Assembly (NCBI RefSeq): GCF_016775705.1
Contig: NZ_CP068760.1
Span: 1,984,001 to 2,048,000, forward strand
DNA from: Chryseobacterium cucumeris
GTDB taxonomy: Bacteria; Bacteroidota; Bacteroidia; Flavobacteriales; Weeksellaceae
Reading direction: 5' to 3'
DNA length: 64,000 nt
A program made the translations under genes and the position numbers. Below are positions 6,404 to 58,404 of the stretch, one piece after another. The first letter of the stretch is position 1. Every line of letters begins with the position of its first letter. The notes beneath the pieces were generated by a model that ran no database searches, had not been told where the DNA came from, and saw only the letters and a list, made by a program, of their open reading frames with translations.

Positions 6404-8656
6404 ATGAAAAAACTTTCTCTAATTTCTCTTGGTATTTTAGCATCCCTGCAGCTGACAAAAGCACAGGTTATTTCATCAAAAAAATGGGCAGATCTGTTTT
6501 CCTATAATAATGTCTTAGCCATGAAAGAAGACAATGGAAAAATCATTGCAGCCACCCAAAACGGAATATTCTATTATACAATATCAACCGGAGAAATTAC
6601 GAAGTTATCTAAAGCCAACGGGCTGCATAATATCGGAATCACAGCTTTTGATTATAATCCACAGACTAAAACAGGACTTATCGGTTATGAAAACGGTTCT
6701 ATGGATGTTATTACGCCTCAGGAGATCAAATATATTGTTGATATTCCCATTGCTACAGGATATAATGGGGACAAAAAGATCAACCACATTTCCATAACCG
6801 GAGATCAGGCTGTCATTTCTGTTGGGTATGGAGTTTCCATCTTTAACCTTCAGAATAAAGAATTTGGTGATTCTGCATTTTTCCTGACCGGTGGGATTTA
6901 TCAGGCAAGTAATGAAGCCACCATATTTGGGAATAAAGTATATTCTGTAACGGATACAGGTTTGAAAAGCCATCAAATGAATACTACATTTCCTGTATTT
7001 TCTACATGGACAACGGAAGCTCCCGGAGCTTTCAAACATATAGATTCAGAATCAGAACTGGTTTTCTCAACGGCTACAGCAGCTTATATTTATAATAACG
7101 GTACCCCGACACAACTTCCTACTACTTTTGAAAAAATCAGGGATGTTGTTATTACCTCCAATAGCATTGTCGTTACAGATAACAGAGTATATACTTATGG
7201 AATCAATGGAGTATCACAAAATGCGGTAAGTCTTGGTGAAGAATGCAATACTGCATTAACAGCTGGCGGAAAGATTTTAGGAGGAACGGTATTATCGGGA
7301 ATTAAGGATGAAAGTAACAATACTTTTAAACCTTCCGGACCTTACTTCAATTTTGCTTATAATATCAATCTTTTTGATAATAACCAACTTCTGGTTTCTA
7401 CCGGAGCAAGAGCGAATAACTATAACGAACCGGTTAGTAATCCTAAAAAACCTGGATTTTACTATTTTACTGGTACAGAATGGGTGTATCCTTCTTTTTT
7501 TGTTAATAACCCACAGTCTATCAATGTACTGGATGCTACATTAAGTCCTTTTAGTAATAATGAAGTATTTTTCACCAATTATACGATGTTTGATAATGGG
7601 GTCTACAAAATGAAGTACAATGCTACCAGCAAGGATTTTGAACTGGTAAAGTATTATAATCTTGGAGCACAGCCTTATTACAGACGCCCTGTAGGTTTTG
7701 CCACAGACTCTCAGAGTAATCTTTTTGTATCTTTTGGTTTCAATGATGGGAATCCATCTATAGGAATTTACGATAAAGCAGCAGATGATTTTGTTATTAA
7801 GAAAATAGTTCTGGCCAGTGATGGTACTCAAAAACCGGTTTTCCACGAAAATATGTTGTGGACTCCGCTGCCAAGATCCAATAACTTCTGGGTATATGAT
7901 TATAAAAATGCTCTTAACCTTTCCGATGATTCAGATTATATTCTGGGAACATCTAATGGATTTAACAGTTCAGGAGGAATTTTATCTGTAGCCTTTGATA
8001 AGGCTGGTGATGCATGGATTGGTACGGACGGAGGTCTGAGGATCATGTCAAACTCAGCATCAGAAATAAAAAGTGCCCAGCCTAAAGTAGAACCTATAGT
8101 GATAGAGCAGAATGGTTTGGGTGAAGAGCTTTTCAGAGAATCAGCAATTCTTCAGATTGCAGTAGATGGAGGTGATTATAAATGGGTATCCGTTGACGGC
8201 GGCGGTGTTTACTATCTGTCTTCAGACGGTCAGAGAACCATAAAACATTTTACAAAGGAAAATTCACCTCTTCCTACCAATAGTGTTACTGATATCAAAA
8301 TTGATAAAAAAACAGGCAAGGTGTATTTTGTAACGTATAATGGTATTGTAACCTATCAGGGCGATGTTGCTGATGTAACATCCAATTTCGGTGATGTTGT
8401 AGTATATCCTAATCCTGTTGTTTATTCAAACTTTAAAGGAAAAGTAACGATAAAAGGTCTTGCAGAAAAAACCAATATAAGAATCGTGGATGCTGCAGGA
8501 AATGTAGTACACTCTGCCGTTGCACGTGGAGGTTATTATGAATGGGATCTCAATAATCAGAAAGGAACAAGAGTAGCTTCAGGGATTTATTTTGTCCTGA
8601 TGACGAACGAAGACGGATCTGATAAAGCTACCGCCAAAATAGGAGTGGTTAATTAA
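6404..8656 (+). CDS. porZ: PorZ-like type IX secretion beta-propeller protein
   Basis: 750 aa, starting one base after the metallophosphatase stop. Signal peptide MKKLSLISLGILASLQLTKA; then two-propeller repeats (for example ISVGYGVSIFNLQNKEFGD and DAWIGTDGGLRIMSN); then a C-terminal type A sorting domain beginning FGDVVVYPNPV and ending ASGIYFVLMTNEDGS. This is the layout of PorZ, the outer-surface protein that, with PorU, PorV and PorQ, attaches A-LPS to substrates of the type IX secretion system. The ATG of recO overlaps its stop codon. Confidence 0.85.
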   Translation: MKKLSLISLGILASLQLTKAQVISSKKWADLFSYNNVLAMKEDNGKIIAATQNGIFYYTISTGEITKLSKANGLHNIGITAFDYNPQTKTGLIGYENGSMDVITPQEIKYIVDIPIATGYNGDKKINHISITGDQAVISVGYGVSIFNLQNKEFGDSAFFLTGGIYQASNEATIFGNKVYSVTDTGLKSHQMNTTFPVFSTWTTEAPGAFKHIDSESELVFSTATAAYIYNNGTPTQLPTTFEKIRDVVITSNSIVVTDNRVYTYGINGVSQNAVSLGEECNTALTAGGKILGGTVLSGIKDESNNTFKPSGPYFNFAYNINLFDNNQLLVSTGARANNYNEPVSNPKKPGFYYFTGTEWVYPSFFVNNPQSINVLDATLSPFSNNEVFFTNYTMFDNGVYKMKYNATSKDFELVKYYNLGAQPYYRRPVGFATDSQSNLFVSFGFNDGNPSIGIYDKAADDFVIKKIVLASDGTQKPVFHENMLWTPLPRSNNFWVYDYKNALNLSDDSDYILGTSNGFNSSGGILSVAFDKAGDAWIGTDGGLRIMSNSASEIKSAQPKVEPIVIEQNGLGEELFRESAILQIAVDGGDYKWVSVDGGGVYYLSSDGQRTIKHFTKENSPLPTNSVTDIKIDKKTGKVYFVTYNGIVTYQGDVADVTSNFGDVVVYPNPVVYSNFKGKVTIKGLAEKTNIRIVDAAGNVVHSAVARGGYYEWDLNNQKGTRVASGIYFVLMTNEDGSDKATAKIGVVN

Positions 8657-39876: not shown

Positions 39877-39892
39877 TCTACCGGCATTTTTT
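39864..39892 (+). terminator. Terminator of the HTH pair
   Basis: TGCCGGT (39864-39870) pairs with ACCGGCA (39880-39886), followed by TTTTTT. The stop codon of the second HTH gene is in the loop. Confidence 0.85.
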
Positions 39893-39912
39893 AAAGGTAA
39901 TAATAAGGAAAA

Positions 39913-40020
39913 AACCGGGCTGTCGTTTGCCGGAGTCGAACCGGATAACCTTGCCGGAGTAACCGGCTTCGCTATTCCTCCCGTCATTATAGTGCGATGT
40001 ATTTTTTCCTGACGACACTT
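39913..40020 (-). ncRNA. tRNA-like/Y-RNA-like element Y4
   Basis: Minus-strand RNA beginning with the shared 5' motif AAGTGTCGTC. TGTCGT at the 5' end pairs with ACGACA near the 3' end; inside are a GCCGG-loop-CCGGC hairpin and a T-arm-like CCGGTTCGACTCCGG. A T-run follows the 3' end (CCCGGTTTTTT). Unlike Y1 and Y2 it has no D arm and is not clearly permuted. A related or decayed member of the Y-RNA group. Confidence 0.5.
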
Positions 40021-40154
40021 CAGATGGTCATATAAAGAAGCTGGAAGTGGAAAGAAGAAAGATGGCAAGCCTGAGATTCCTCCGGCTTTATAGAAAATTA
40101 CGATACAAAGATCTTTCAACGTCCCACTTCCGACTCCTCATATGATGAAATCAA

Positions 40155-40296
40155 GACAATAAGCGAAAAATGCAGTCGTGCTCTAACCAGCTGAGCTACT
40201 CTTCCTATATAAACTGTGTTTTTTGTTGTGGAAGAGACGGGACTCGAACCCGTGACCCCGTCGTGATGAGCGAAGTAACATTTTTCTACGGCACTT
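40155..40296 (-). ncRNA. Y RNA candidate Y1, circularly permuted tRNA mimic (YrlA-type)
   Basis: Minus-strand order from 5': motif AAGTGCCGTAGAAAAATG; T arm ACGGGTTCGAGTCCCGT; 3' acceptor strand CTCTTCC; a 24-nt linker; 5' acceptor strand GGAAGAG; TA; D arm GCTCAGCTGGTTAGAGC; then CATTTTTC. The acceptor stem is a perfect 7 bp. GAAAAATG and CATTTTTC join the two ends. The 3' tRNA half thus precedes the 5' half, as in bacterial YrlA RNAs that bind Ro/Rsr. It begins 9 nt after the stop codon of the SUKH-type gene. Confidence 0.8.
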
Positions 40297-40304
40297 GTTT
40301 GTTT

Positions 40305-41144
40305 TTATTTTCCTTCTTCAGCAATATATGTTTTGACAATAGGATGAATGCTGGCATTCTCTGAATAATAATTTAAACCGAAACTCCTCCATCCACAAGA
40401 CCAATAGAGAATCCTTTCTTTCAGATAAGGAATATCTTTGGTTTCATCATACTTAAAATTTTCATCAAATATATACTTTACCTCATCAATAAGTTGCGGA
40501 TAAAACATTTGGTCTTCTTCATCAAAGACCTCAATATGGATATTAAGATGGTTACCTATTTCATTTAATAAATAAGTTCTAAAATCCCAACCCATAACAA
40601 TAATATCGGAAGATCCCATAGAAATAATCGGTTTCCATTTAAGATTCTCATCACTTACAATATATCGGAGACCAGTTAATGGTAAAAGAGCTGGAACATG
40701 AGAAAACCATTCTTCAAAAACTTCTATTCTCTTTTCCAAAGATGCAGATTTTATTCCCCATGAATTAAGCCACACCTGGCTCTTCTCATTCACATCGTGC
40801 TTCATCCAATTATAAGAACCTTTTATTATTTCCTCAACTTCCTTTTCATCAGCAAGCCAATTATAAAAAAAATCACGTTCTTCAGTAATTAATTCTCCAT
40901 CATATTCATATTCAACAATTTCTTTTTTATCAATCGCATGAAGAATCTTTAAAAATTCTTTATGCTCAGGAATAAAACTGATCTTATATTTTTTCTCAAC
41001 CTGATCAATCTGTTCTTCAGAAAGCCCTTGCCATTTGGCTCCGTAAAATCCTTTAGGACAATTTTCATCATCCACAGACCACAGTTTTTCTGTGCGTTCT
41101 TTGACCCAGTATAAAAATTCAGTCAGATTACTTGGTATATGCAT
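40305..41144 (-). CDS. SMI1/KNR4 (SUKH)-type protein
   Basis: 279 aa. The N-terminal 75 residues fit the SUKH fold start: GAKWQGLSEEQIDQVEKKYK followed by SFIPEHKEFLKILHAID. The rest is rich in Trp, Tyr and acidic residues (DEEDQMFYPQLIDEVKYIFD). SUKH proteins are often immunity or regulatory proteins. It lies between tRNA-like elements Y3 and Y1 on the same strand, so its mRNA probably carries or borders these RNAs. No toxin gene is adjacent. Confidence 0.68.
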   Translation of the reverse strand: MHIPSNLTEFLYWVKERTEKLWSVDDENCPKGFYGAKWQGLSEEQIDQVEKKYKISFIPEHKEFLKILHAIDKKEIVEYEYDGELITEERDFFYNWLADEKEVEEIIKGSYNWMKHDVNEKSQVWLNSWGIKSASLEKRIEVFEEWFSHVPALLPLTGLRYIVSDENLKWKPIISMGSSDIIVMGWDFRTYLLNEIGNHLNIHIEVFDEEDQMFYPQLIDEVKYIFDENFKYDETKDIPYLKERILYWSCGWRSFGLNYYSENASIHPIVKTYIAEEGK

Positions 41145-41164: not shown

Positions 41165-41262
41165 AAAAGAGGCAGGATTCGAAAAGACTTGTACAAGATC
41201 ACTTTCATGACCTTCTGGAGTCGAACCAAATCAAACCGAAGCAGGTCTTTTCTACGGCACTC
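41165..41262 (-). ncRNA. Compact Y RNA candidate Y3 with T arm and GAAA-capped acceptor
   Basis: Minus strand, 5' motif GAGTGCCGTAGAAAAG. GAAAAGACCTG pairs with CAAGTCTTTTC (10 of 11 pairs) as the terminal stem. Inside: T arm TTTGGTTCGACTCCAGA (5-bp stem), then AGGTCAT-GAAA-GTGATCT, a 7-bp acceptor-like stem closed by a GNRA loop. Thus the T arm again precedes the acceptor, but the D arm is missing. The 3' flank has CCTGCCTC then a T-rich tract that may end transcription. Confidence 0.72.
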
Positions 41263-41280
41263 TTTTACAAATCAAGGTAA

Positions 41281-41411
41281 TATTTTTCAGAATCTTCCGT
41301 GCATTTGCTCTACCTGCTGAGCTACCTCTCCTTTTCGGGGGAGAAGGCAGGATTCGAACCTGCGACCCAATGCTTACTCAATCTCGAAGTATGATTCTAA
41401 GACGACACTTG
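41281..41411 (-). ncRNA. Y RNA candidate Y2, complete circularly permuted tRNA mimic (YrlA-type)
   Basis: Minus strand: 5' motif AAGTGTCGTC; TTAGAATC; GCATT; GGGTC; T arm GCAGGTTCGAATCCTGC; CTTCTCC; 8-nt loop CCCGAAAA; GGAGAGG; TA; D arm GCTCAGCAGGTAGAGC; A; AATGC; GATTCTGA. Stems: acceptor GGAGAGG/CTTCTCC (7 bp), anticodon stem AATGC/GCATT (5 bp), terminal stem TTAGAATC/GATTCTGA (8 bp). All tRNA parts are present, but the ends are opened in the anticodon region and joined at the acceptor tip, the layout described for YrlA RNAs. It lies downstream of the Ro60-type gene and shares its promoter element. Confidence 0.85.
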
Positions 41412-41446
41412 ATTTTAATTATTCATGGTTATTAGTTTTCTTTTTA

Positions 41447-44193: not shown

Positions 44194-45537
44194 TTAAACA
44201 TTAACCAGTTTTTTCACTGCCAATACATGTTTACAGGGACCTCTTTCCCCCTGATATTTACTGAACCACTCACAGGTACAGCGTTCTTTTTCTTCCTGAA
44301 TGATTACTGTATGATGTACACCGGTTCCTCTTACTCTGGCTTCTGTTCTTTCTTTATTATTATTCAAGATTTCTACTTTTCCGTCTTCAATCAATTTTTC
44401 CGCATTTTTTATGCGGGGATTAAGCCCGATAATCCGGCTTAATTTAAATGGAAGTCTGCGATAGAAAAATTCCCTGTCATCAAGATCGTAACCGAGTAAT
44501 CCCATTGCAGCAAGCCTGCCGGTACTATTTTCAACTTTGTCAAAACTGATATTCTCTTCCAGAGCAAGCGTGGCAGGATTAAAGGACTGGTTGGCATAGG
44601 CATATTTATCCAAGGCGTCAATCCATTCGTCGGGAACATCCGAAATCAGGCTATCTAACACTGCGCCTTCCCCTGAGAAACCTCTCCAGCATTCTCTAGA
44701 TAAAGAAAAACTGAAACGGATATTCCCCATACTGAGCTGCCATGTTACGGACTGCATGTTGGCATGTGCAAATACCTGCATAGAATCAATATAAGGAAGA
44801 AGAGGCTCTAAAAGACGAAGCCTGTGAATTCCTCCTATGCAAACAGAATCTGTAGATTGTACCGGAGAAAAGATGGGTTTATTTCCGCGTACAATTAAGT
44901 AATAATCTGACTTTACCACTCCTTTCGGCATTCCTCTAAACAATTGCTGCGTCTGGATTCTATTGAAGGTGTAGCGTTTCACTGATTCTGATAAATAGAC
45001 CTGAACGGTCCCCAATCCTTTGATCCATTTTACAGGCAATGGGACTTTTCTTTCTATTATTTTATTTTCTTCCTGATAAATCCCAACTTCTTTTTGCCCT
45101 ACAGAAAGCATAATTTTTCCATTCGGACGGATACTTCCCAAAGCATTTATCATAGGCTGATTGAAATCCACATTTGTTGTTCCGTTTTCAAGAAACTCTC
45201 CATCCAATCCATCAGGCAGTACATCTACTCTTGCATACACTCCTGCACAATGAGAAAAGCCTTCAAATCGTACTCTCCCATTTCCTGCTGTCACTATAGG
45301 ATCTTTAAGGTGTGCCATCTGAAGCGGCGACAGATTAAAACTGGATTTCACAATGTTGGAAAGTGTGATCAGACATCGGGCCAAAATAAAGGGCTGCCCT
45401 ACATTTCCCCAAAAGAAACAGGGCGCATCAGTATTTTTATATACCTCATTGTATTTGGCGAGGAACAACTCTTCAAGCGCACCTGTCCTAACTAAAGAGG
45501 ATGCTCCTGAATAGTTGTAAATAAGCGTATCTTCCAT
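44194..45537 (-). CDS. SWIM zinc-finger protein
   Basis: 447 aa. The C-terminal SWIM finger is ERCTCEWFSKYQGERGPCKH: CxC then CxH zinc ligands. The remainder is a mixed domain (LFRGMPKGVVKSDYYLIVRG, SMGNIRFSFSLSRECWRGFS) without a domain I recognise. SWIM fingers bind nucleic acid or protein partners. Its gene starts 3 nt after the 898-aa gene, and this pair resembles SWIM/helical-repeat pairs found with MoxR/vWA or Ro-type systems in other bacteria. Confidence 0.8.
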   Translation of the reverse strand: MEDTLIYNYSGASSLVRTGALEELFLAKYNEVYKNTDAPCFFWGNVGQPFILARCLITLSNIVKSSFNLSPLQMAHLKDPIVTAGNGRVRFEGFSHCAGVYARVDVLPDGLDGEFLENGTTNVDFNQPMINALGSIRPNGKIMLSVGQKEVGIYQEENKIIERKVPLPVKWIKGLGTVQVYLSESVKRYTFNRIQTQQLFRGMPKGVVKSDYYLIVRGNKPIFSPVQSTDSVCIGGIHRLRLLEPLLPYIDSMQVFAHANMQSVTWQLSMGNIRFSFSLSRECWRGFSGEGAVLDSLISDVPDEWIDALDKYAYANQSFNPATLALEENISFDKVENSTGRLAAMGLLGYDLDDREFFYRRLPFKLSRIIGLNPRIKNAEKLIEDGKVEILNNNKERTEARVRGTGVHHTVIIQEEKERCTCEWFSKYQGERGPCKHVLAVKKLVNV

Positions 45538-45540
45538 GAT

Positions 45541-48237
45541 CTATTTTTTCAGGAGTAGATTACAGATTTTTTTAAGGCTAGAGTTTTCTTTCCAGTGGTT
45601 TAATTTTTCAAGTACTTCTTTAGGAACCAATGAATGATTCAATGCCAATACTTCATGGTAAATTTCCAGAATTCTTTTCAGATTGGTAACCGGTTCTTCC
45701 ATTTGAAGTACAATATTGGTAATCAATTCCTCGAGAGCAGTATTATGATTTTTGCTTACATTCAGCATGTGATGCTGCATAAGATCTGTCAATCTTTTCA
45801 CCGGCGCCCACTCCAGTTTTTCGTGCAGACCAATCACTCTTCCCAGCCTTGCGTTATCCATCATCTGACAGGAAACATGTTCAAGCCAGATTTCAGCAGC
45901 AGTTCCTCGGATGGTTTTATCACCATCCAGGAAAATAGTCCCAAGAAACAGATAACCAATTTCATCCAGAGGTTTCTTGATCTGATACAGTGTATTGGCA
46001 GTATTCAAAACAAGGTTTCTTTCAAAAACTTCTGCAATTCCTGAATAGAAAAGACAGTACTTGATAACTTTCGCCAGAGCATTGGCAGGCGTATTGGGAA
46101 AGCACAGCATCAGTGCAGGAATTTCATTAAGCTCTTTCTGCTCTGCTACAAAATATTCCAGGAACAAAGGTTCTTTTCTTTTTTCGAGATGATATTTTGG
46201 AATCGTAATATTCAGCTCTACCGGATAGTATGAGTTTTTCTTATTGTCAATGGTCTTCCATTGGTAAGCCCCTGAAAAGAATTCCACAGGAATATTTTCA
46301 TATCCGAAACTTCTGAATTCTTCAAAAACAGTGTCAGGTGAACGTGTAATTCCGGCTGTCATCCACCATGAAGGATGTATAAACTTGCCTTCCGGTTTTT
46401 CATTTTTACCAAAGAAGAAAAGCAACAATTCTCTATATTCACCCTTTAGTCTTTTCTCTGTTTCTGCAACAGCTTCTGAAGTATCATCCAAAGCACAGCG
46501 CTGCAGGGCCAGCTGAATATCCAGATGATGAGGCTCTGTATTACTATTCTGATAATTCTCTAATCTCTCAACGAGAGTCACAGGGGAAATCCAGCATGGC
46601 GCGTGGGTGATAGGAAATAACAAAGGCAGTTTATCCCCGGATTTTATTTTTTCAACAGCATATACAGCGATCTCTTTAAAAGCCTGTCTTGCAGGACAAT
46701 CTGCTCCAACATCTTCTATCGGGCCCAGTTTCTTCTGATAATTGGAATAAGACTCTCTTGTTATTTCTTCCTCCCTTGTTTTCTGATATATTTTTTCCAG
46801 ATTCTTTAACTGAACCGGATATTTTTCCATTAATACCAGCCCATAATTGATAATAGCATTGCACAGCAAAACATTCAGATAAGGAACTTCCCATTTTGCA
46901 ATGGTTTTACAGGCCTTTAAAAATACAGGTTCCATCAGTTTCACAGAATCTTCATCCACATCTCCGGCAAACCTGATAAATCCAGTCAAAGCAATATCAC
47001 AATGATAGCTATACGGATCGTCCATTGCCAAAGGCAGATAGAACATCAGATCTTCAAAATTCTGAAGTACCTGCACTGCATTTTCATCTGTAGCCAGCAA
47101 TCGTTTTTCCGAAGCTATAGCTTCCAGTTCCGGCTGTTTTTCTTCAATATATTTTACTAAAAGCGGACGTACATTCGTCAATATATTATCTGAATAGTGA
47201 GAAAGTGCCTCAATCATATTTTCTGAAGCCGGTATGTATTTAAGAATGATCTTTGCTGCTTTTGACTGTATGCCATCATCTTTACTAACAAACGCTGTAC
47301 TTAAAGCCACTCCGAGCATATCCGGATCTACCTTCTTTCTCTGAAATATTTTTTCAGTAAGTCCCAGGCTGGAAACCACCACTGTTTTTACTTCTGAACT
47401 CAGCAAATTCGGAAGGTAATGCGAAAATTCTTCATTTTTAAATTCAGCAGCCCCAACAATTTTTTTCAGGTGGGATAATATTGTATTCACGGCTTTTGAC
47501 TGTGAAGAAACAAGGCCTGCAAGCAGTTCATCCTGCAGATCAGATAATTCTTCTTCTGTTGGTTTTAATGATGTAAAAGCATCCATAAACCAGCCCGTGA
47601 CATTTTTATTAAAGTTTCTGTTGGAAGCCAGAAGGCATTCTTTCAGGAATCTTTTCCTTTCAATTTTCTTCTCAGCAATGAGCTTTTGAACAATGGGAAA
47701 CCATTCTTTACGGAAGGGTAAAGATTTGGAAGGAAATTCACATAAATACCAGAAATGTGTATTCAGTGTTTCAGGATAACGGTCAAGATCAGCTGGATAA
47801 TTACTCAGGTGATGTCCCAATAATTCAGGTTTGGGCTGTACATATCCTTTCTCTGACCATCCTAAAATATCTTTATAATTGAAGGCTGTAAATTCTGCTT
47901 CAACCGATTCATTGATAAAGTCTGAAAACCAGTCCGGGCATCCCCATTCCAATATCTGCTCGGTCTGTTCTGCATTGCGGAAAAGGCTCCAGTAATTTTT
48001 ACCAAAATTCTTTTTGTCCATACATACAAAAGAAGCTATATCTATAATGGAATGCTGGTTCACAGATCCTGCCGTGTGGTAGGAGTTTTTAGTCATTACA
48101 ATTTTACTGATCTCACGGTCCATTTTCTTGATAGAGGGTATCAGTGTTTTCCTTTCTTCAATGCTAAGCTCTTTTAGAAAGGGAATAATCTCATGTACTT
48201 TTTCCTCATTAAGGATCTCATAAAGTCTTTCTTTCAT
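45541..48237 (-). CDS. Large helical-repeat protein (DUF6493-like), SWIM partner
   Basis: 898 aa, almost all helical with HEAT-like periodicity (LLSSEVKTVVVSSLGLTEKI, SKAAKIILKYIPASENMIEA, LMEPVFLKACKTIAKWEVPY). The C-terminal half (RLTDLMQHHMLNVSKNHNTA) and the pairing with a SWIM gene fit the DUF6493-type proteins, but that name is by resemblance only. No catalytic motif seen. Likely a scaffold that binds RNA, protein or the SWIM subunit. Preceded by a 106-aa gene with a 5-nt gap. Confidence 0.65.
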   Translation of the reverse strand: MKERLYEILNEEKVHEIIPFLKELSIEERKTLIPSIKKMDREISKIVMTKNSYHTAGSVNQHSIIDIASFVCMDKKNFGKNYWSLFRNAEQTEQILEWGCPDWFSDFINESVEAEFTAFNYKDILGWSEKGYVQPKPELLGHHLSNYPADLDRYPETLNTHFWYLCEFPSKSLPFRKEWFPIVQKLIAEKKIERKRFLKECLLASNRNFNKNVTGWFMDAFTSLKPTEEELSDLQDELLAGLVSSQSKAVNTILSHLKKIVGAAEFKNEEFSHYLPNLLSSEVKTVVVSSLGLTEKIFQRKKVDPDMLGVALSTAFVSKDDGIQSKAAKIILKYIPASENMIEALSHYSDNILTNVRPLLVKYIEEKQPELEAIASEKRLLATDENAVQVLQNFEDLMFYLPLAMDDPYSYHCDIALTGFIRFAGDVDEDSVKLMEPVFLKACKTIAKWEVPYLNVLLCNAIINYGLVLMEKYPVQLKNLEKIYQKTREEEITRESYSNYQKKLGPIEDVGADCPARQAFKEIAVYAVEKIKSGDKLPLLFPITHAPCWISPVTLVERLENYQNSNTEPHHLDIQLALQRCALDDTSEAVAETEKRLKGEYRELLLFFFGKNEKPEGKFIHPSWWMTAGITRSPDTVFEEFRSFGYENIPVEFFSGAYQWKTIDNKKNSYYPVELNITIPKYHLEKRKEPLFLEYFVAEQKELNEIPALMLCFPNTPANALAKVIKYCLFYSGIAEVFERNLVLNTANTLYQIKKPLDEIGYLFLGTIFLDGDKTIRGTAAEIWLEHVSCQMMDNARLGRVIGLHEKLEWAPVKRLTDLMQHHMLNVSKNHNTALEELITNIVLQMEEPVTNLKRILEIYHEVLALNHSLVPKEVLEKLNHWKENSSLKKICNLLLKK

Positions 48238-48242
48238 GGGCT

Positions 48243-48563
48243 TTAATTTGATGTATAAATTTGTTTCAGGTTATTCGTTTTATTCCATTCTTCAGGCAGT
48301 TTGATAAGAGCTTTCTCTGGTTCAAACCCATTATACTTTAACAGTTCATGATAGAGCCCGTACTTTTTGTTATTAAAAACCGTTTTCCCAGCTGCTGAAA
48401 GAATGGAGGTCAGCAGTTTTCCTTTATATTTTTTAAAATTGTTTGAAGACCGCTTGTTAAAAAGGGTCTCAAAAGCCGTAACACAGGGAGTTTCATATTT
48501 ATTAAACAGTCCCGGAGACAGAAATAAATAAGGCCTCTCCATGAAAAGTAAATTCATCTTCAT
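48243..48563 (-). CDS. Small hypothetical protein, first gene of the SWIM operon
   Basis: 106 aa starting MKMNLLFMERPYLFL. Basic (KRSSNNFKKYKGKLLTSILS), no domain recognised, no clear signal. It is placed 5 nt before the 898-aa gene, which supports it being real. Moderately confident; the start codon may be the internal ATG of MERPYLFLS. Confidence 0.55.
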   Translation of the reverse strand: MKMNLLFMERPYLFLSPGLFNKYETPCVTAFETLFNKRSSNNFKKYKGKLLTSILSAAGKTVFNNKKYGLYHELLKYNGFEPEKALIKLPEEWNKTNNLKQIYTSN

Positions 48564-56017: not shown

Positions 56018-56096
56018 TGAATCGTCAATTAGTTTTCACTGTCAATATTTTTAAATTCATTTGCAAAGCAAAATTCACTATTGACTATTCACTTTG
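56018..56096. repeat. Intergenic inverted repeat at the edge of the tRNA array
   Basis: GTGAATTGTGAATCGTCAAT, then TTTGCAAAGCAAAATTCACT, then ATTGACTATTCAC: same family as at 36.85 and 58.2 kb. It can form an imperfect long hairpin between the YkuK gene and the first tRNA-like gene. Confidence 0.5.
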
Positions 56097-56167
56097 CACT
56101 CCGAACCGGACTTGAACCGATACCATCAGTTTTGGAGACTGAGATGCTATCATTACACCATCAGAGT
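56097..56167 (-). tRNA. tRNA-Trp(CCA)-like
   Basis: Acceptor ACTCTGA/TCGGAGT, anticodon arm TCAGT-CTCCAAA-ACTGA (anticodon CCA), T loop TTCAAGT, discriminator G as in Trp tRNAs. The D loop is short (AATGATA) and lacks the G18-G19 pair, unlike normal Trp tRNAs. No CCA encoded. Confidence 0.75.
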
Positions 56168-56174
56168 AAAATTG

Positions 56175-56245
56175 TTGATTCATTAGGACTCGAACCTAAA
56201 CTCCAAGAATCAAAATCTTGTGTGCTGCCATTACACTATGAATCA
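56175..56245 (-). tRNA. tRNA-Gln(TTG)
   Basis: Acceptor TGATTCA/TGAATCA, D arm GTGTAATGGCAGCAC, anticodon arm CAAGA-TTTTGAT-TCTTG (anticodon TTG), T loop TTCGAGT, discriminator A. Regular tRNA-Gln style. Confidence 0.8.
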
Positions 56246-56330
56246 ATTTTATAATTGATAAATGTTGATTGATAATTGATGAAGTGCTCAGCAATCATTG
56301 ATCATTAATCTCTTATCATTTATGTTTTTG

Positions 56331-56403
56331 TACGGGAAGAGGGACTCGAACCCCCAAAAGCTTGATCCTAAATCAAGAGTGTCTGCCATTCCACCATTCC
56401 CGC
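56331..56403 (-). tRNA. tRNA-Leu(TAG) without long variable arm
   Basis: Acceptor GCGGGAA/TTCCCGT, D arm GTGGAATGGCAGACAC (Leu-like), anticodon arm CTTGA-TTTAGGA-TCAAG (TAG). The variable region is only 5 nt (CTTTT), whereas bacterial Leu tRNAs are class II with a long arm. T loop TTCGAGT. Confidence 0.72.
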
Positions 56404-56404
56404 A

Positions 56405-56475
56405 GGTTTTTATAAGTAATGAGTAATATTTTCTATTTTTATTATTACTCATTGCTCATTACTTATTATTCATAT
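56405..56475. repeat. Intergenic inverted repeat in the array
   Basis: GTAATGAGTAATATTTT and ATTACTCATTGCTCATTAC arms. Same family as at 12.0 and 17.1 kb; a second copy follows at 56560-56636. Confidence 0.55.
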
Positions 56476-56479
56476 CCTG

Positions 56480-56553
56480 TACCTCTCCCCAGATTCGAAC
56501 TGGGACTTTACGGGGTTTAAAGCCGTTTTCTCTGCCAATTGGAATAGAGAGGC
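56480..56553 (-). tRNA. tRNA-Leu(TAA)-like without long variable arm
   Basis: Acceptor GCCTCTC/GAGAGGT, anticodon arm ACGGC-TTTAAAC-CCCGT (TAA, one C-C mismatch next to the loop), variable region AAAGT, T arm CCCAG-TTCGAAT-CTGGG, discriminator A. Class I shape for a Leu anticodon. Confidence 0.7.
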
Positions 56554-56559
56554 GTTATT

Positions 56560-56636
56560 TTTATGAGTAATGAGTAATTGGTAATACTTTCTATTTTCAT
56601 TATTACTCATTGCTCATTACTTATTACTCATATTAT
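56560..56636. repeat. Intergenic inverted repeat in the array, second copy
   Basis: ATGAGTAATGAGTAATTGG then ATTACTCATTGCTCATTAC and TTATTACTCAT. Near-copy of 56405-56475, so the tRNA unit between them is flanked by direct copies. Confidence 0.55.
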
Positions 56637-56642
56637 GTCTAG

Positions 56643-56728
56643 GTTTGAGAAAGCTCTGTCTGTTTATAAATTATGCCTGCTAGTATTTGTAAAGATCTTC
56701 TGCTCTCGACAAACCTTTCTCATTTCCT
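56643..56728 (-). ncRNA. Conserved hairpin element R1
   Basis: Minus-strand arms TGAGAAAGGTTTGTC and GACAGAGCTTTCTCA enclose the conserved core GAGAGCAGAAGATCTTTA and a variable loop. One of five copies sharing TGTCGAGNGCAGAAGATC and GACAG; the outer stem sequence differs from copy to copy while pairing is kept. Confidence 0.65.
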
Positions 56729-56749
56729 AATGTATTTTGTTTAAAAAAG

Positions 56750-56806
56750 TAAAAGGCTGTCTGTTTTTATTGACTAAAGATCTTCTGCGCTCGACAGTCC
56801 TTTTTT
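56750..56806 (-). ncRNA. Conserved hairpin element R2
   Basis: Minus strand: AAAAGGACTGTC and GACAGCCTTTT arms around GAGCGCAGAAGATCTTTA. Directly follows R1. Confidence 0.65.
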
Positions 56807-56824
56807 CTCTTTTCTTCTTTTTTG

Positions 56825-56907
56825 TGTGAATGATAACTGGCCAATTTTTAAAAACAATCTGAACTTTCATGGTATTAAATCAATTCAATATTGACCAGTT
56901 ATTCACA
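56825..56907 (-). ncRNA. Long hairpin element with 18-nt arms
   Basis: Minus strand TGTGAATAACTGGTCAAT pairs with ATTGGCCAGTTATCATTCAC: 11 bp, a 3-nt bulge, then 7 bp, around a 44-nt loop. It is distinct from the R elements and placed between R2 and tRNA-Glu. The shape recalls simple Y RNAs, but no tRNA part is present. Confidence 0.5.
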
Positions 56908-56912
56908 TCCAG

Positions 56913-56984
56913 TACTCTATAAGGGAATCGAACCCTTGTTTTCTGCTCGAAAGGCAGGCGTCCTCACCGTTAGACGAATAGAGC
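56913..56984 (-). tRNA. tRNA-Glu(TTC)
   Basis: Acceptor GCTCTAT/ATAGAGT, D arm GTCTAACGGTGAGGAC (Glu-like), anticodon loop CTTTCGA (TTC), T loop TTCGATT, discriminator A. First base pair is G-U. Confidence 0.8.
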
Positions 56985-56989
56985 GTTAA

Positions 56990-57060
56990 TCCACAAACCA
57001 GGAATCGAACCTGGACAACAAGAGTACATTTCCTGCATGCTGCCATTACATTATCTGTGG
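56990..57060 (-). tRNA. tRNA-like, anticodon position TGT (Thr), U33 replaced by A
   Basis: Acceptor CCACAGA/TTTGTGG, D arm ATGTAATGGCAGCAT, anticodon arm CAGGA-AATGTAC-TCTTG. If the loop is 7 nt, the anticodon is TGT, but position 33 is A, not the invariant U. T arm CCAGG-TTCGATT-CCTGG. Possibly non-decoding. Confidence 0.65.
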
Positions 57061-57061
57061 T

Positions 57062-57148
57062 TGGTGGAAGTAGTAGGATTCGAACCTACTCAGCAATGAA
57101 GCAACAGATTTACAGTCTGCCCCGACTCTCCAACTTCGGCGTACTTCC
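57062..57148 (-). tRNA. tRNA-Tyr(GTA)
   Basis: Acceptor GGAAGTA/TACTTCC, discriminator A and encoded CCA, D loop with GG, anticodon loop CTGTAAA (GTA), 14-nt variable arm, T arm GTAGG-TTCGAAT-CCTAC. A regular class II Tyr tRNA and the most standard member of the array. Confidence 0.9.
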
Positions 57149-57200
57149 CTGTTTTATGAGCAATTAGTAATTCATAAGTAATTCCTCATTTTTCCTTTTT

Positions 57201-57272
57201 GAAAAGAAAAGGTCTGTCTTTATATTGAATGTTTGGTTAAAGATCTTCTGCGCTCGACAGCCTTTTTCTTTT
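57201..57272 (-). ncRNA. Conserved hairpin element R3
   Basis: Minus strand arms AAAAGAAAAAGGCTGTC and GACAGACCTTTTCTTTT, core GAGCGCAGAAGATCTTTA. Between tRNA-Tyr and tRNA-Cys. Confidence 0.65.
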
Positions 57273-57354
57273 ATTAATAAAGGATATTCTTTGTTATAGA
57301 TGATAAAAGATCATTGATAAATGATTCTTTATATCTCCTATAATTTTTACATTG

Positions 57355-57436
57355 AGATGGCTATGGGATTCAAACCCACTCAGTTGACACAACGGTTTTG
57401 CAGACCGCCCCGACTCTTCTACTTCGGCGAACCATC
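57355..57436 (-). tRNA. tRNA-Cys(GCA)-like with a Tyr-type class II body
   Basis: Acceptor GATGGTT/AGCCATC, anticodon arm GCGGT-CTGCAAA-ACCGT (GCA), discriminator U as in Cys. D stem CCGA/TCGG and a 12-nt variable arm match the neighbouring Tyr tRNA. D loop lacks GG and the T loop is TTTGAAT, so the G19-C56 pair is lost on both sides. Confidence 0.72.
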
Positions 57437-57443
57437 AGATTAA

Positions 57444-57504
57444 AAAATAAAGTCTGTCTTCATTTATTTGATAAAGAACTTCTGCGCCTGACAAACTTTA
57501 TTTT
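57444..57504 (-). ncRNA. Conserved hairpin element R4
   Basis: Minus strand AAAATAAAGTTTGTC pairs with GACAGACTTTATTTT over 15 positions (one G-U). The core is slightly altered: AGGCGCAGAAGTTCTTTA. Confidence 0.68.
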
Positions 57505-57548
57505 ACCTAAAAATTTATAAATGATATTCTTTAACTTTTAATTCATCC

Positions 57549-57626
57549 GGAGAGAAGAAAAGCCTGTCTGTATTTTTCGTGTTTGGCGTAAGATCTTCTG
57601 CTCTCGACAAACTTTACTTTTTCTCC
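57549..57626 (-). ncRNA. Conserved hairpin element R5
   Basis: Minus strand GGAGAAAAAGTAAAGTTTGTC-type arm (GTTTGTC conserved) with GACAGGCTTTTCTTCTCTCC, core GAGAGCAGAAGATCTTAC. Directly follows R4. Confidence 0.65.
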
Positions 57627-57652
57627 TGAAACAATTAACAATTAGTTACCTG

Positions 57653-57724
57653 CGATTCTGGAAAGACTCGAACTTTCAACTTCCGGCTTAACAGACCGGT
57701 GCTCTGCCATTGAGCTACAAAATC
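57653..57724 (-). tRNA. tRNA-Asn(GTT)
   Basis: Acceptor GATTTTG/CAGAATC, D arm GCTCAATGGCAGAGC, anticodon arm CCGGT-CTGTTAA-GCCGG (GTT), T arm GAAAG-TTCGAGT-CTTTC, discriminator G, as in Asn tRNAs. No CCA. Confidence 0.85.
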
Positions 57725-57728
57725 ATTG

Positions 57729-57802
57729 TAATTCCGGAAGGACTCGAACCTTCAACCTCCGGTGTATCAGACCGACACTCTAACCACTTGAGCTACGAAA
57801 TC
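57729..57802 (-). tRNA. tRNA-Ile(GAT)
   Basis: Acceptor GATTTCG/CGGAATT, D arm GCTCAAGTGGTTAGAGT, anticodon loop CTGATAC (GAT), T arm GAAGG-TTCGAGT-CCTTC, discriminator A. Its 5' end is 4 nt from the next gene, so the tRNAs must be cut from one precursor. Confidence 0.82.
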
Positions 57803-57807
57803 ATTTG

Positions 57808-57879
57808 TATTCCATAAGGGGATCGAACCCTTGTCGTCCGGTAGAAAGCCGGATGCACTTGCCACTATGCTAATGGAAC
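57808..57879 (-). tRNA. tRNA-Glu(TTC), second type
   Basis: Acceptor GTTCCAT/ATGGAAT, D arm GCATAGTGGCAAGTGC, anticodon arm TCCGG-CTTTCTA-CCGGA (TTC), T arm AAGGG-TTCGATC-CCCTT. Its body differs from the other Glu gene at 56913, so it is not a recent duplicate. Confidence 0.78.
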
Positions 57880-57885
57880 CAATTG

Positions 57886-57957
57886 TCTGGAAAGCAAGAT
57901 TCGAACTTGCGACCTCCCGCGTCCAAGACGGGTAAACAACCACCGTTATCTTTCCAG
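57886..57957 (-). tRNA. tRNA-Pro(TGG)
   Basis: Acceptor CTGGAAA/TTTCCAG (perfect), anticodon arm CCCGT-CTTGGAC-GCGGG (TGG), T arm GCAAG-TTCGAAT-CTTGC, discriminator A. The D arm (TAACGGTGGTTGTT) pairs poorly. Confidence 0.78.
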
Positions 57958-58021
57958 CTTTGGGGTTCACTTCTGTTTCTTTTCCGGGAGACAGCCGGAT
58001 AGGAAATTTTCCATGAACCTT
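57958..58021 (-). other. Structured spacer between tRNA-Pro and tRNA-Arg
   Basis: GGTTCA and TGAACC form outer arms (minus strand) with CCGGCTGTCTCCCGG and GGAAA/TTTCC inside. A hairpin of a different kind from the R elements. No frame or tRNA part. Confidence 0.4.
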
Positions 58022-58098
58022 TGGTGATTCCGAGAGGACTCGAACCTCTAACCCTGGGTTTAGAAAACCCATGCTCTGTCCAGTTGAGCTACGGAACC
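58022..58098 (-). tRNA. tRNA-Arg(TCT)
   Basis: Acceptor GGTTCCG/CGGAATC, discriminator A plus encoded CCA, D arm GCTCAACTGGACAGAGC, anticodon arm TGGGT-TTTCTAA-ACCCA (TCT), T arm AGAGG-TTCGAGT-CCTCT. All invariant positions are present. Confidence 0.9.
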
Positions 58099-58106
58099 GT
58101 TTTTTG

Positions 58107-58180
58107 TAATCCCAGAAAGATTTGAACTTTCAACCCCCGGTTTAAAAGACCGGTGCTCTAACCGATTGAGCTATGAGATT
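58107..58180 (-). tRNA. tRNA-Lys(TTT)
   Basis: Acceptor AATCTCA/TGGGATT, D arm GCTCAATCGGTTAGAGC, anticodon arm CCGGT-CTTTTAA-ACCGG (TTT), T arm GAAAG-TTCAAAT-CTTTC, discriminator A. Position 1 is A. Confidence 0.85.
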
Positions 58181-58189
58181 ATTTTAAAG

Positions 58190-58240
58190 TCGTGAATAGT
58201 CAATAAGCAATTCGCTTCGCTTGTCAATTTTAAAATTCAC
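58190..58240. repeat. Intergenic inverted repeat in the array
   Basis: CGTGAATAGTCAATAAGC, AATTCGCTTCGCTTGTCAAT and AAAATTCAC. Same family as at 36.85 and 56.02 kb. Confidence 0.55.
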
Positions 58241-58248
58241 ATTCTTTG

Positions 58249-58322
58249 TAATCTCAGAAGGACTCGAACCTTCAACCTTCGGTGCCGTAAACCGACGCTC
58301 TATCCAATTGAGCCATGAGATT
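58249..58322 (-). tRNA. tRNA-Arg(ACG)
   Basis: Acceptor AATCTCA/TGAGATT (nearly the same as the neighbouring Lys gene), D arm GCTCAATTGGATAGAGC, anticodon arm TCGGT-TTACGGC-ACCGA (ACG), T arm GAAGG-TTCGAGT-CCTTC. A34 would need TadA editing to inosine. Confidence 0.85.
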
Positions 58323-58331
58323 TTCTCCTTT

Positions 58332-58404
58332 GGGTATCTCCGGGAATCGAACCCTGTTCTCCGGTTCCACAGACCGGCGCTTTACCAAATAAGCTAAAGA
58401 AACC
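58332..58404 (-). tRNA. tRNA-His(GTG)
   Basis: Acceptor GGTTTCT/AGATACC with one T-T mismatch, D arm GCTTATTTGGTAAAGC, anticodon arm CCGGT-CTGTGGA-ACCGG (GTG), T loop TTCGATT, discriminator C as in His. The base before the 5' G is T, so the G-1 needed by HisRS is not encoded. Confidence 0.8.

Follow-up and report, generated by a model that had tools for sequence, protein, structure and literature searches.

An array of probable Y RNAs with a constant stem and variable payloads lies beside the Ro60 gene of Chryseobacterium cucumeris

The window analysed in this study is the whole stretch of 64,000 nucleotides from Chryseobacterium cucumeris. Its minus strand carries, in this order, a Ro60 (Rsr) gene, the RNA units A and H, a protein coding gene, and the RNA units B and G (Table 1). 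The Ro60 protein was found to contain both domains that characterize Ro60/Rsr, with Pfam matches to TROVE (99.5 bits, cut-off 23) and vWA_Ro60 (30.6 bits, cut-off 27.7), and the original prediction of a Ro60 gene upstream of unit A was thereby confirmed. The protein also matched PDB chains named TROVE domain-containing protein at 93.4 bits; PADLOC gave no match for Ro60. The protein gene inside the array gave no Pfam or PADLOC match, and among the 75 other loci, 14 have a homologue of it 3' of Ro60 with 51-86% identity, besides one weak and partial match (L204, 25%). Upstream of Ro60 and on the same strand, a SWIM zinc finger gene (PADLOC SWIM_XIII) and DUF6493/7824/7825 genes are located (44194-48563, minus). 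A cluster of 15 tRNA genes lies about 13 kb from Ro60 (56096-58404, minus), and several of these diverge from the other copies in the genome (Thr-TGT, Tyr, Glu, Leu and Trp variants). A long imperfect hairpin (GGAAGTGG...CCACTTCC), recognized by eye between units B and G at about 40020-40150, looks like an inserted repeat.

Table 1. Position of the Ro60 gene, the RNA units and the structural elements of unit A in the window.
Feature	Position	Strand	Basis or remark
Ro60 (Rsr) gene, TROVE and vWA domains, 505 aa	41744..43261	minus	Pfam
Unit A, full extent, 147 nt	41269..41415	minus	alignment A1 and pair counts
Lower stem, 5' strand AAATCAAG, pairs with 41269-41276	41408..41415	minus	helix 1
Left internal loop TGTCGTC	41401..41407	minus	A1
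Upper stem, 5' strand TTAGAATC, pairs with 41287-41294	41393..41400	minus	helix 2
ATACTTCG motif	41385..41392	minus	invariant in A1
Anticodon-stem 3' half GCATT, pairs with 41301-41305	41369..41373	minus	helix 3
T arm GCAGG-TTCGAAT-CCTGC	41347..41363	minus	helix 4, 100% paired
3' acceptor strand CTTCTCC	41340..41346	minus	helix 5, 92.7%
8-nt loop CCCGAAAA, closes acceptor stem	41332..41339	minus	
5' acceptor strand GGAGAGG, then TA	41325..41331	minus	
D arm GCTC-AGCAGGTA-GAGC, then A	41307..41322	minus	invariant helix in A1
Anticodon-stem 5' half AATGC	41301..41305	minus	helix 3
Upper stem, 3' strand GATTCTGA	41287..41294	minus	helix 2
Lower stem, 3' strand CTTGATTT	41269..41276	minus	helix 1
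Unit H	41165..41266	minus	docking stem as in unit A, T arm TTTGG-TTCGACT-CCAGA and hairpin
Protein gene inside array	40305..41144	minus	between units H and B
Unit B, permuted tRNA	40149..40300	minus	24-nt acceptor loop; alignment A2, model R1
Unit G	39892..40022	minus	short lower stem, GGAGGAATAGCGAAGCCGG hairpin and T arm CCGG-TTCGACT-CCGG

The original prediction had placed a complete circularly permuted tRNA at 41281-41411, which the analysis has widened to the full extent of unit A, one of four RNA units in a varied array. The minus-strand order of T arm, 3' acceptor strand, 8-nt loop, 5' acceptor strand and D arm was found as described, and the acceptor stem pairs over 7 bp, one of which is G-U. 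The core as a whole reads anticodon-stem 3' half, variable loop (GGGTC stands between GCATT and the T arm), T arm and 3' acceptor strand, followed by the 8-nt loop, 5' acceptor strand, D arm and anticodon-stem 5' half, so that in a real tRNA the break would fall in the anticodon loop. The permuted core is hence confirmed, whereas the word complete is too strong because unit A has neither an anticodon loop as such nor a CCA end. The stem TTAGAATC/GATTCTGA, earlier taken for the terminal one, does pair but is not the outermost, as the lower stem AAATCAAG/CTTGATTT and an internal loop of 7 nt on one side and 10 nt on the other (TGTCGTC / AAAATATTAC, with a conserved UGUCGUC) lie outside it.

The comparative data are the decisive evidence for the fold of unit A. 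Alignment A1, made by sequence, combines units of the unit A type with those of a close sister type, 57 related units in all, taken from this genus and from genera near it. Under the structure, 94.6% of its cells pair against 90.0% after shuffling, 15 of the 36 pairs have changed on both sides against a shuffled mean of 9.0, and 83 cells have changed on both sides against 21.1; these values were reached by none of 500 shuffles, and sliding the partners lowered the pairing to 36-50%. The 8-bp lower stem is paired in 96.7% of cells with 3 pairs changed on both sides, the upper stem in 93.9% with 4, and the anticodon stem in 85.3% with 4, while the D stem is uninformative in A1 because it never varies. 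The predicted anticodon stem AATGC/GCATT pairs in the window, but of the 50 rows of A1 that have letters in the column of its outermost pair, 36 leave it unpaired. The sequence GTGTCGT is identical across all 57 rows, and TG[CT]CGT was recognized as the head motif of the arrays of the genus.

Further, 129 modules (from 138 units with TAGCTCA; 71 loci, 67 distinct) were placed by their T-loop and TAGCTCA motifs only. Acceptor pairing in these modules is 88.9% (with shuffled partners, 69.4% on average and at most 74.2%), and T-stem pairing in the 67 distinct modules is 99.7% (partner-shuffled mean 87.4%, maximum 90.1%). The acceptor loop is of 8 nt in 55 of the 129, and GG is found in the D loop of 119, which is consistent with a folded tRNA elbow; purine-57 A58 is present in 127, at positions partly fixed by the search motif. 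Both strands of the window were also searched with a descriptor, which returned four permuted modules. All four lie on the minus strand, and they are unit A, its neighbour at 40253 and two pairs of adjacent genuine tRNA genes. Single-sequence folding of unit A gave a weak signal by itself (z of -1.61, with 8 of 200 shuffles as good); of the proposed stems, its minimum-energy fold contains all (lower, upper, T, acceptor and D) but the anticodon stem.

The D arm was not recognized in unit H, and a separate anticodon stem was searched for in unit B and not found. Units A and H are only 2 nt apart, which makes a shared and processed transcript likely. Unit G was missed by the array finder described below because of its short lower stem; the copies in relatives pass. 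An amino acid assignment for each module was also tried and dropped as the best matches barely differ (Gly for A; Met or Gly for B).

A TROVE domain was found in 45 of the 59 genomes of the genus, the source genome included, and 43 of these 45 carry the main-clade Ro60, whose matches have E values no higher than 1.2e-14. Model R1, the covariance model of the type B units, has a full-length match (E 5.8e-15 or better) in 44 of the 59; in the other 15 its best match is 1e-9 or weaker and, among the matches listed, covers only the tRNA-like middle, as is the case for adjacent real tRNAs. Both RNA and Ro60 are therefore present in 43 genomes, neither in 15 (two of which have a weak, divergent TROVE match only), RNA only in one (G038, an 87%-complete draft in about 410 contigs) and Ro60 only in none. 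This co-occurrence, with genomes counted without regard to phylogeny, has a Fisher p of 4e-13, and it supports the functional link to Ro60 that had been proposed from gene position. As R1 was trained partly on the tested genomes, its absence from the Ro60-less genomes is the informative half of the result. Two genomes (G018 and G021) have, along with the main Ro60, a divergent TROVE protein of 28-30% identity, belonging to the set L074-L077 and L164-L166.

A unit finder requiring the TG[CT]CGT head, two helices and the right internal loop was built from the window and four other loci, and it is hence tuned to this family. Within the genus, 42 loci yielded 283 units, while 141 shuffled regions yielded 12, the opposite strand of 47 regions 6 and the Ro60-gene stretches 1; a C[TA]TCG or CTTCA motif is present in 263 of the 283 units. 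Downstream of the main-clade Ro60 in 76 loci of several Bacteroidota families, 507 candidates (1-14 per locus) were found, of which 446 are strict, against 6 strict units in 380 shuffled copies. This count leaves out L028, with 195 bases after Ro60, and L074-L077, L164-L166 and L220-L222, in which Ro60 is 28-31% identical to that of the window. Of 80 named records, which come from Flavobacterium, Chryseobacterium, Pedobacter, Epilithonimonas and further bacteria that are for the most part uncultured, 79 have units (434 in total) and 77 have at least three; the exception, L256, ends about 200 bases 3' of the Ro60 gene. As controls, the 4 kb upstream of the genes gave 3 units and a single shuffle of each locus gave 4. 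At the phylum level, TROVE was found in 27 of 395 genomes.

The loci of the divergent Ro60 proteins L074-L077 gave 1, 0, 2 and 0 finder matches, none with an ACTTCG-type motif, while no array units were found in L164-L166 and nothing consistent in L220-L222. Promoter scans performed no better than chance. Some single loci have shown further features. The Rfam Flavo-1 RNA matches L035 2405-2495 and L056 6551-6641, about 60 bases behind Ro60 on the opposite strand. The Ro60 locus of a Bacteroidetes MAG (L246) has a total of 18 tRNA matches on its two sides (1512-2724 and 6472-8448), and L133 (genome 4748830-4748888) has a partial tRNA-like match over model positions 8-63 only, without an ARAGORN gene.

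Clustering of the payloads by shared 6-mers put 455 of the 507 candidates into one cluster, and signature classes were used instead; these are rough, with some G-type units counted under the T arm only class. By signature, 136 payloads are permuted class I and contain TAGCTCA, and 48 have another D arm; 5 are class II-like, 96 have a T arm and a D arm not recognized, 41 are of type G, 8 are of type K, 13 contain 23S sequence and 160 are small or unrecognized. Of 47 loci scanned, 13 have the 23S-type payload, and all of these belong to the 42 main-clade loci. In L063 it equals the 23S rRNA of the source genome over 33 of 33 bases (E 2.2e-14), a stretch which begins just within helix 69 and reaches U1940-C1941 (E. 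coli numbering). A second piece follows, with 12 of 12 bases in L034 and a GTTGAAAA loop, which resembles helix 35; the two sites, distant from each other in 23S, are fused in reversed order. In 19 distinct 23S-type sequences from 156 loci, the equivalents of U1939 (17 placed by pattern and two by eye) and of U746/U747 are U in all, and the three bases before the U1939 equivalent vary. Literature titles and abstract beginnings, a search with the primary Y RNA papers outside it, gave no 23S-copying Y RNA payload, and to our knowledge such a payload falls outside the described tRNA-mimic role. Mimicry of anticodon loops was considered and rejected, as kept loops are not enriched: 30 of 471 segments have one, where 200 shuffles gave 21.7 on average and up to 33. 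The tRNA-Asp loop CTGTCAC was seen in payloads without a T loop in L203, L206, L219, L225 and L246.

Of 156 loci, 40 have an RtcB gene and 1 has an RlaP gene at a distance of up to 4-5 kb, which lies downstream in 39 and upstream in 2. These 41 loci are of Flavobacterium, Pedobacter and others; as the locus sets overlap in part, they are not 41 independent genomes. Within the 156 loci scanned, neither gene adjoins any locus of the window's own genus, and the source genome has two RtcB genes, both away from Ro60. The arrangement in the relatives resembles the Salmonella rsr-yrlBA-rtcBA operon and points to RNA repair. Moreover, 97 phage records encode a Ro60 relative, and six were examined. In CcrColossus (L307, 2100-2956), Xanthomonas phage Olaya (L309, 2300-2980) and the crAss-like csAssE-Sib (L304, 2300-2995), ACTTCG units carrying permuted or whole tRNAs were recognized by eye 5' of Ro60, and in L304 and L307 some of these Y-RNA-like units are annotated as plain tRNAs. 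The finder did not pick them up, as they have TGGCGTAG or a similar sequence for a head. No units were seen by eye or script in L305 and L308; L306 was scanned by script only.

The best explanation, and a probable one in our judgement, is that the array encodes Ro60-docked Y RNAs with a constant docking stem and a variable payload, and a tether is the simplest reading of this plan by analogy. The docking stem (lower stem, UGYCGU internal loop, upper stem and ACUUCG) would hold Ro60, and the payload in many units would imitate a target of RNA-handling enzymes. The payload of unit A, opened at the anticodon and closed across the acceptor, looks like a tRNA with a cut anticodon loop. The Ro60 RNP may use such payloads to recruit tRNA or rRNA modification or repair proteins, or alternatively may be handed damaged RNA through them, and different payloads may serve different partners. 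We lean slightly towards this adaptor for RNA repair or modification as the mechanism; against the best explanation stand the promoter scans, the position of RtcB away from Ro60 in the window's genus, the lack of enrichment of kept anticodon loops, and 160 of the 507 candidates with small or unclassified payloads in which no target was recognized. We infer transcription of the array, processing from a common transcript, Ro60 binding and the partners. More tentatively, and with the odds somewhat against it, the arrays of Bacteroidota and (by inspection) of some phages could form an exchangeable library of mimics of broken or modifiable RNA shapes. If so, Ro60 would be a programmable platform, and the repair or modification enzyme engaged would depend on which Y RNA is chosen.

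The payloads could also be substrate mimics for uridine-modifying enzymes such as TruB and the TrmA/RlmCD family, which we regard as rather doubtful. The retention of U54/U55 in the payloads is no evidence here because these T-loop bases belonged to the search motif. The invariance of the U746/U747 and U1939 equivalents next to three variable bases would suit such enzymes, as would one PF05958 gene in the source genome, the methylation of both U747 and U1939 by RlmCD (PMC6235398) and the modification of YrlA by TruB and DusA (PMC8394870). However, the bases that follow C1941 are missing from the 23S copy, and the PF05958 gene is a putative RlmCD by one Pfam match. Less probable still are decoys competing for ribotoxins (anticodon nucleases and rRNA-cutting toxins) and so protecting tRNA and 23S rRNA. 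The permutation point coincides with the anticodon, which is the usual cut site, and RNA-repair genes adjoin the loci counted above; further, YrlA, itself uncut, could competitively inhibit an anticodon nuclease, as suggested in PMC7790460, and the 23S copy ends within the UUCCU motif cut by MazF-mt3/mt6 (PMC5408214). Decoys are made less plausible by the lack of enrichment of anticodon-loop sequences and by the loss of the toxin site, as UUCCU is absent at that place in 19 of 19 distinct 23S-type sequences (UUCGG in 17; by eye).

Permuted tRNA genes occur in some algae, and the arm order of unit A agrees with such a gene, matured into a working tRNA; even so, this is extremely improbable for unit A, in which the anticodon loop is absent, the anticodon strands run into the conserved upper stem and the acceptor ends are joined by a loop, and other array units have no tRNA-like part. 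A decayed tRNA cluster or a repeat without function, to which the tRNA-like sequence and the repeat-like hairpin close by might be ascribed, can hardly be reconciled with the compensatory changes, the invariant docking motifs and the tight co-occurrence with Ro60.

The role of bacterial Ro60 and its Y RNAs is a long-standing question with few experimental systems. As the docking stem stays constant while the payload is swapped, the two jobs would be separated genetically in these arrays. The payloads name candidate partners, which are the tRNA-elbow enzymes, the enzymes acting at 23S U747/U1939 and, in relatives, RtcB, and environmental strains of Chryseobacterium and Flavobacterium make the idea open to direct testing.

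Unit A is, with high confidence, a Y RNA of bacterial type. It has a basal stem formed from its 5' and 3' ends, in which helices 1 and 2 covary, its gene is linked to the Ro60 (Rsr) gene, and it contains a permuted tRNA-like domain of T arm, acceptor stem and D arm as in YrlA. Metazoan Y RNAs are likewise bipartite, with a Ro60-binding lower stem and a variable upper part, and differ in that they are not known to have a tRNA-like domain. The original prediction of exactly the YrlA module holds for the arm order and not for family membership. In the covariance-model search it had proposed, the Rfam model (RF02553) aligned with unit A over positions 23-85 in the right arm order; the core scored 34.9 bits in unit A, 36.3 in unit B and 41.1 in a relative's unit, against a gathering threshold of 69 bits that none of 13 array loci reached, and unit A is hence not a member of the YrlA family by Rfam. 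The permuted tRNA-like domain, the basal stem and the Ro60 link are shared with YrlA, and AUACUUCG in the relative's unit aligns with AAUGCUUG of the YrlA consensus, whereas the arrays score about half the threshold, have an extra outer stem with the UGYCGU loop, carry payloads that exceed class I tRNA and include 23S rRNA, and hold 1-14 candidate units per locus. In YrlA the basal stem tethers Rsr and the tRNA-like domain, modified by DusA and TruB, binds PNPase (as given in PMC8394870). The rsr-yrlBA-rtcBA operon of Salmonella, activated on accumulation of tRNA fragments according to PMC7790460, shares with the relatives' loci the side by side placement of Ro60, Y RNAs and RtcB, whereas the RNAs of the arrays are more numerous and more varied and RtcB of the window's genome lies elsewhere. 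In the Deinococcus Ro60-Y RNA-PNPase machine (RYPER), as described in PMC8394870, the Y RNA tethers the Ro60 ring to its partner; the arrays would share this tethering, with a putative partner in place of PNPase and with several different payloads in one array.
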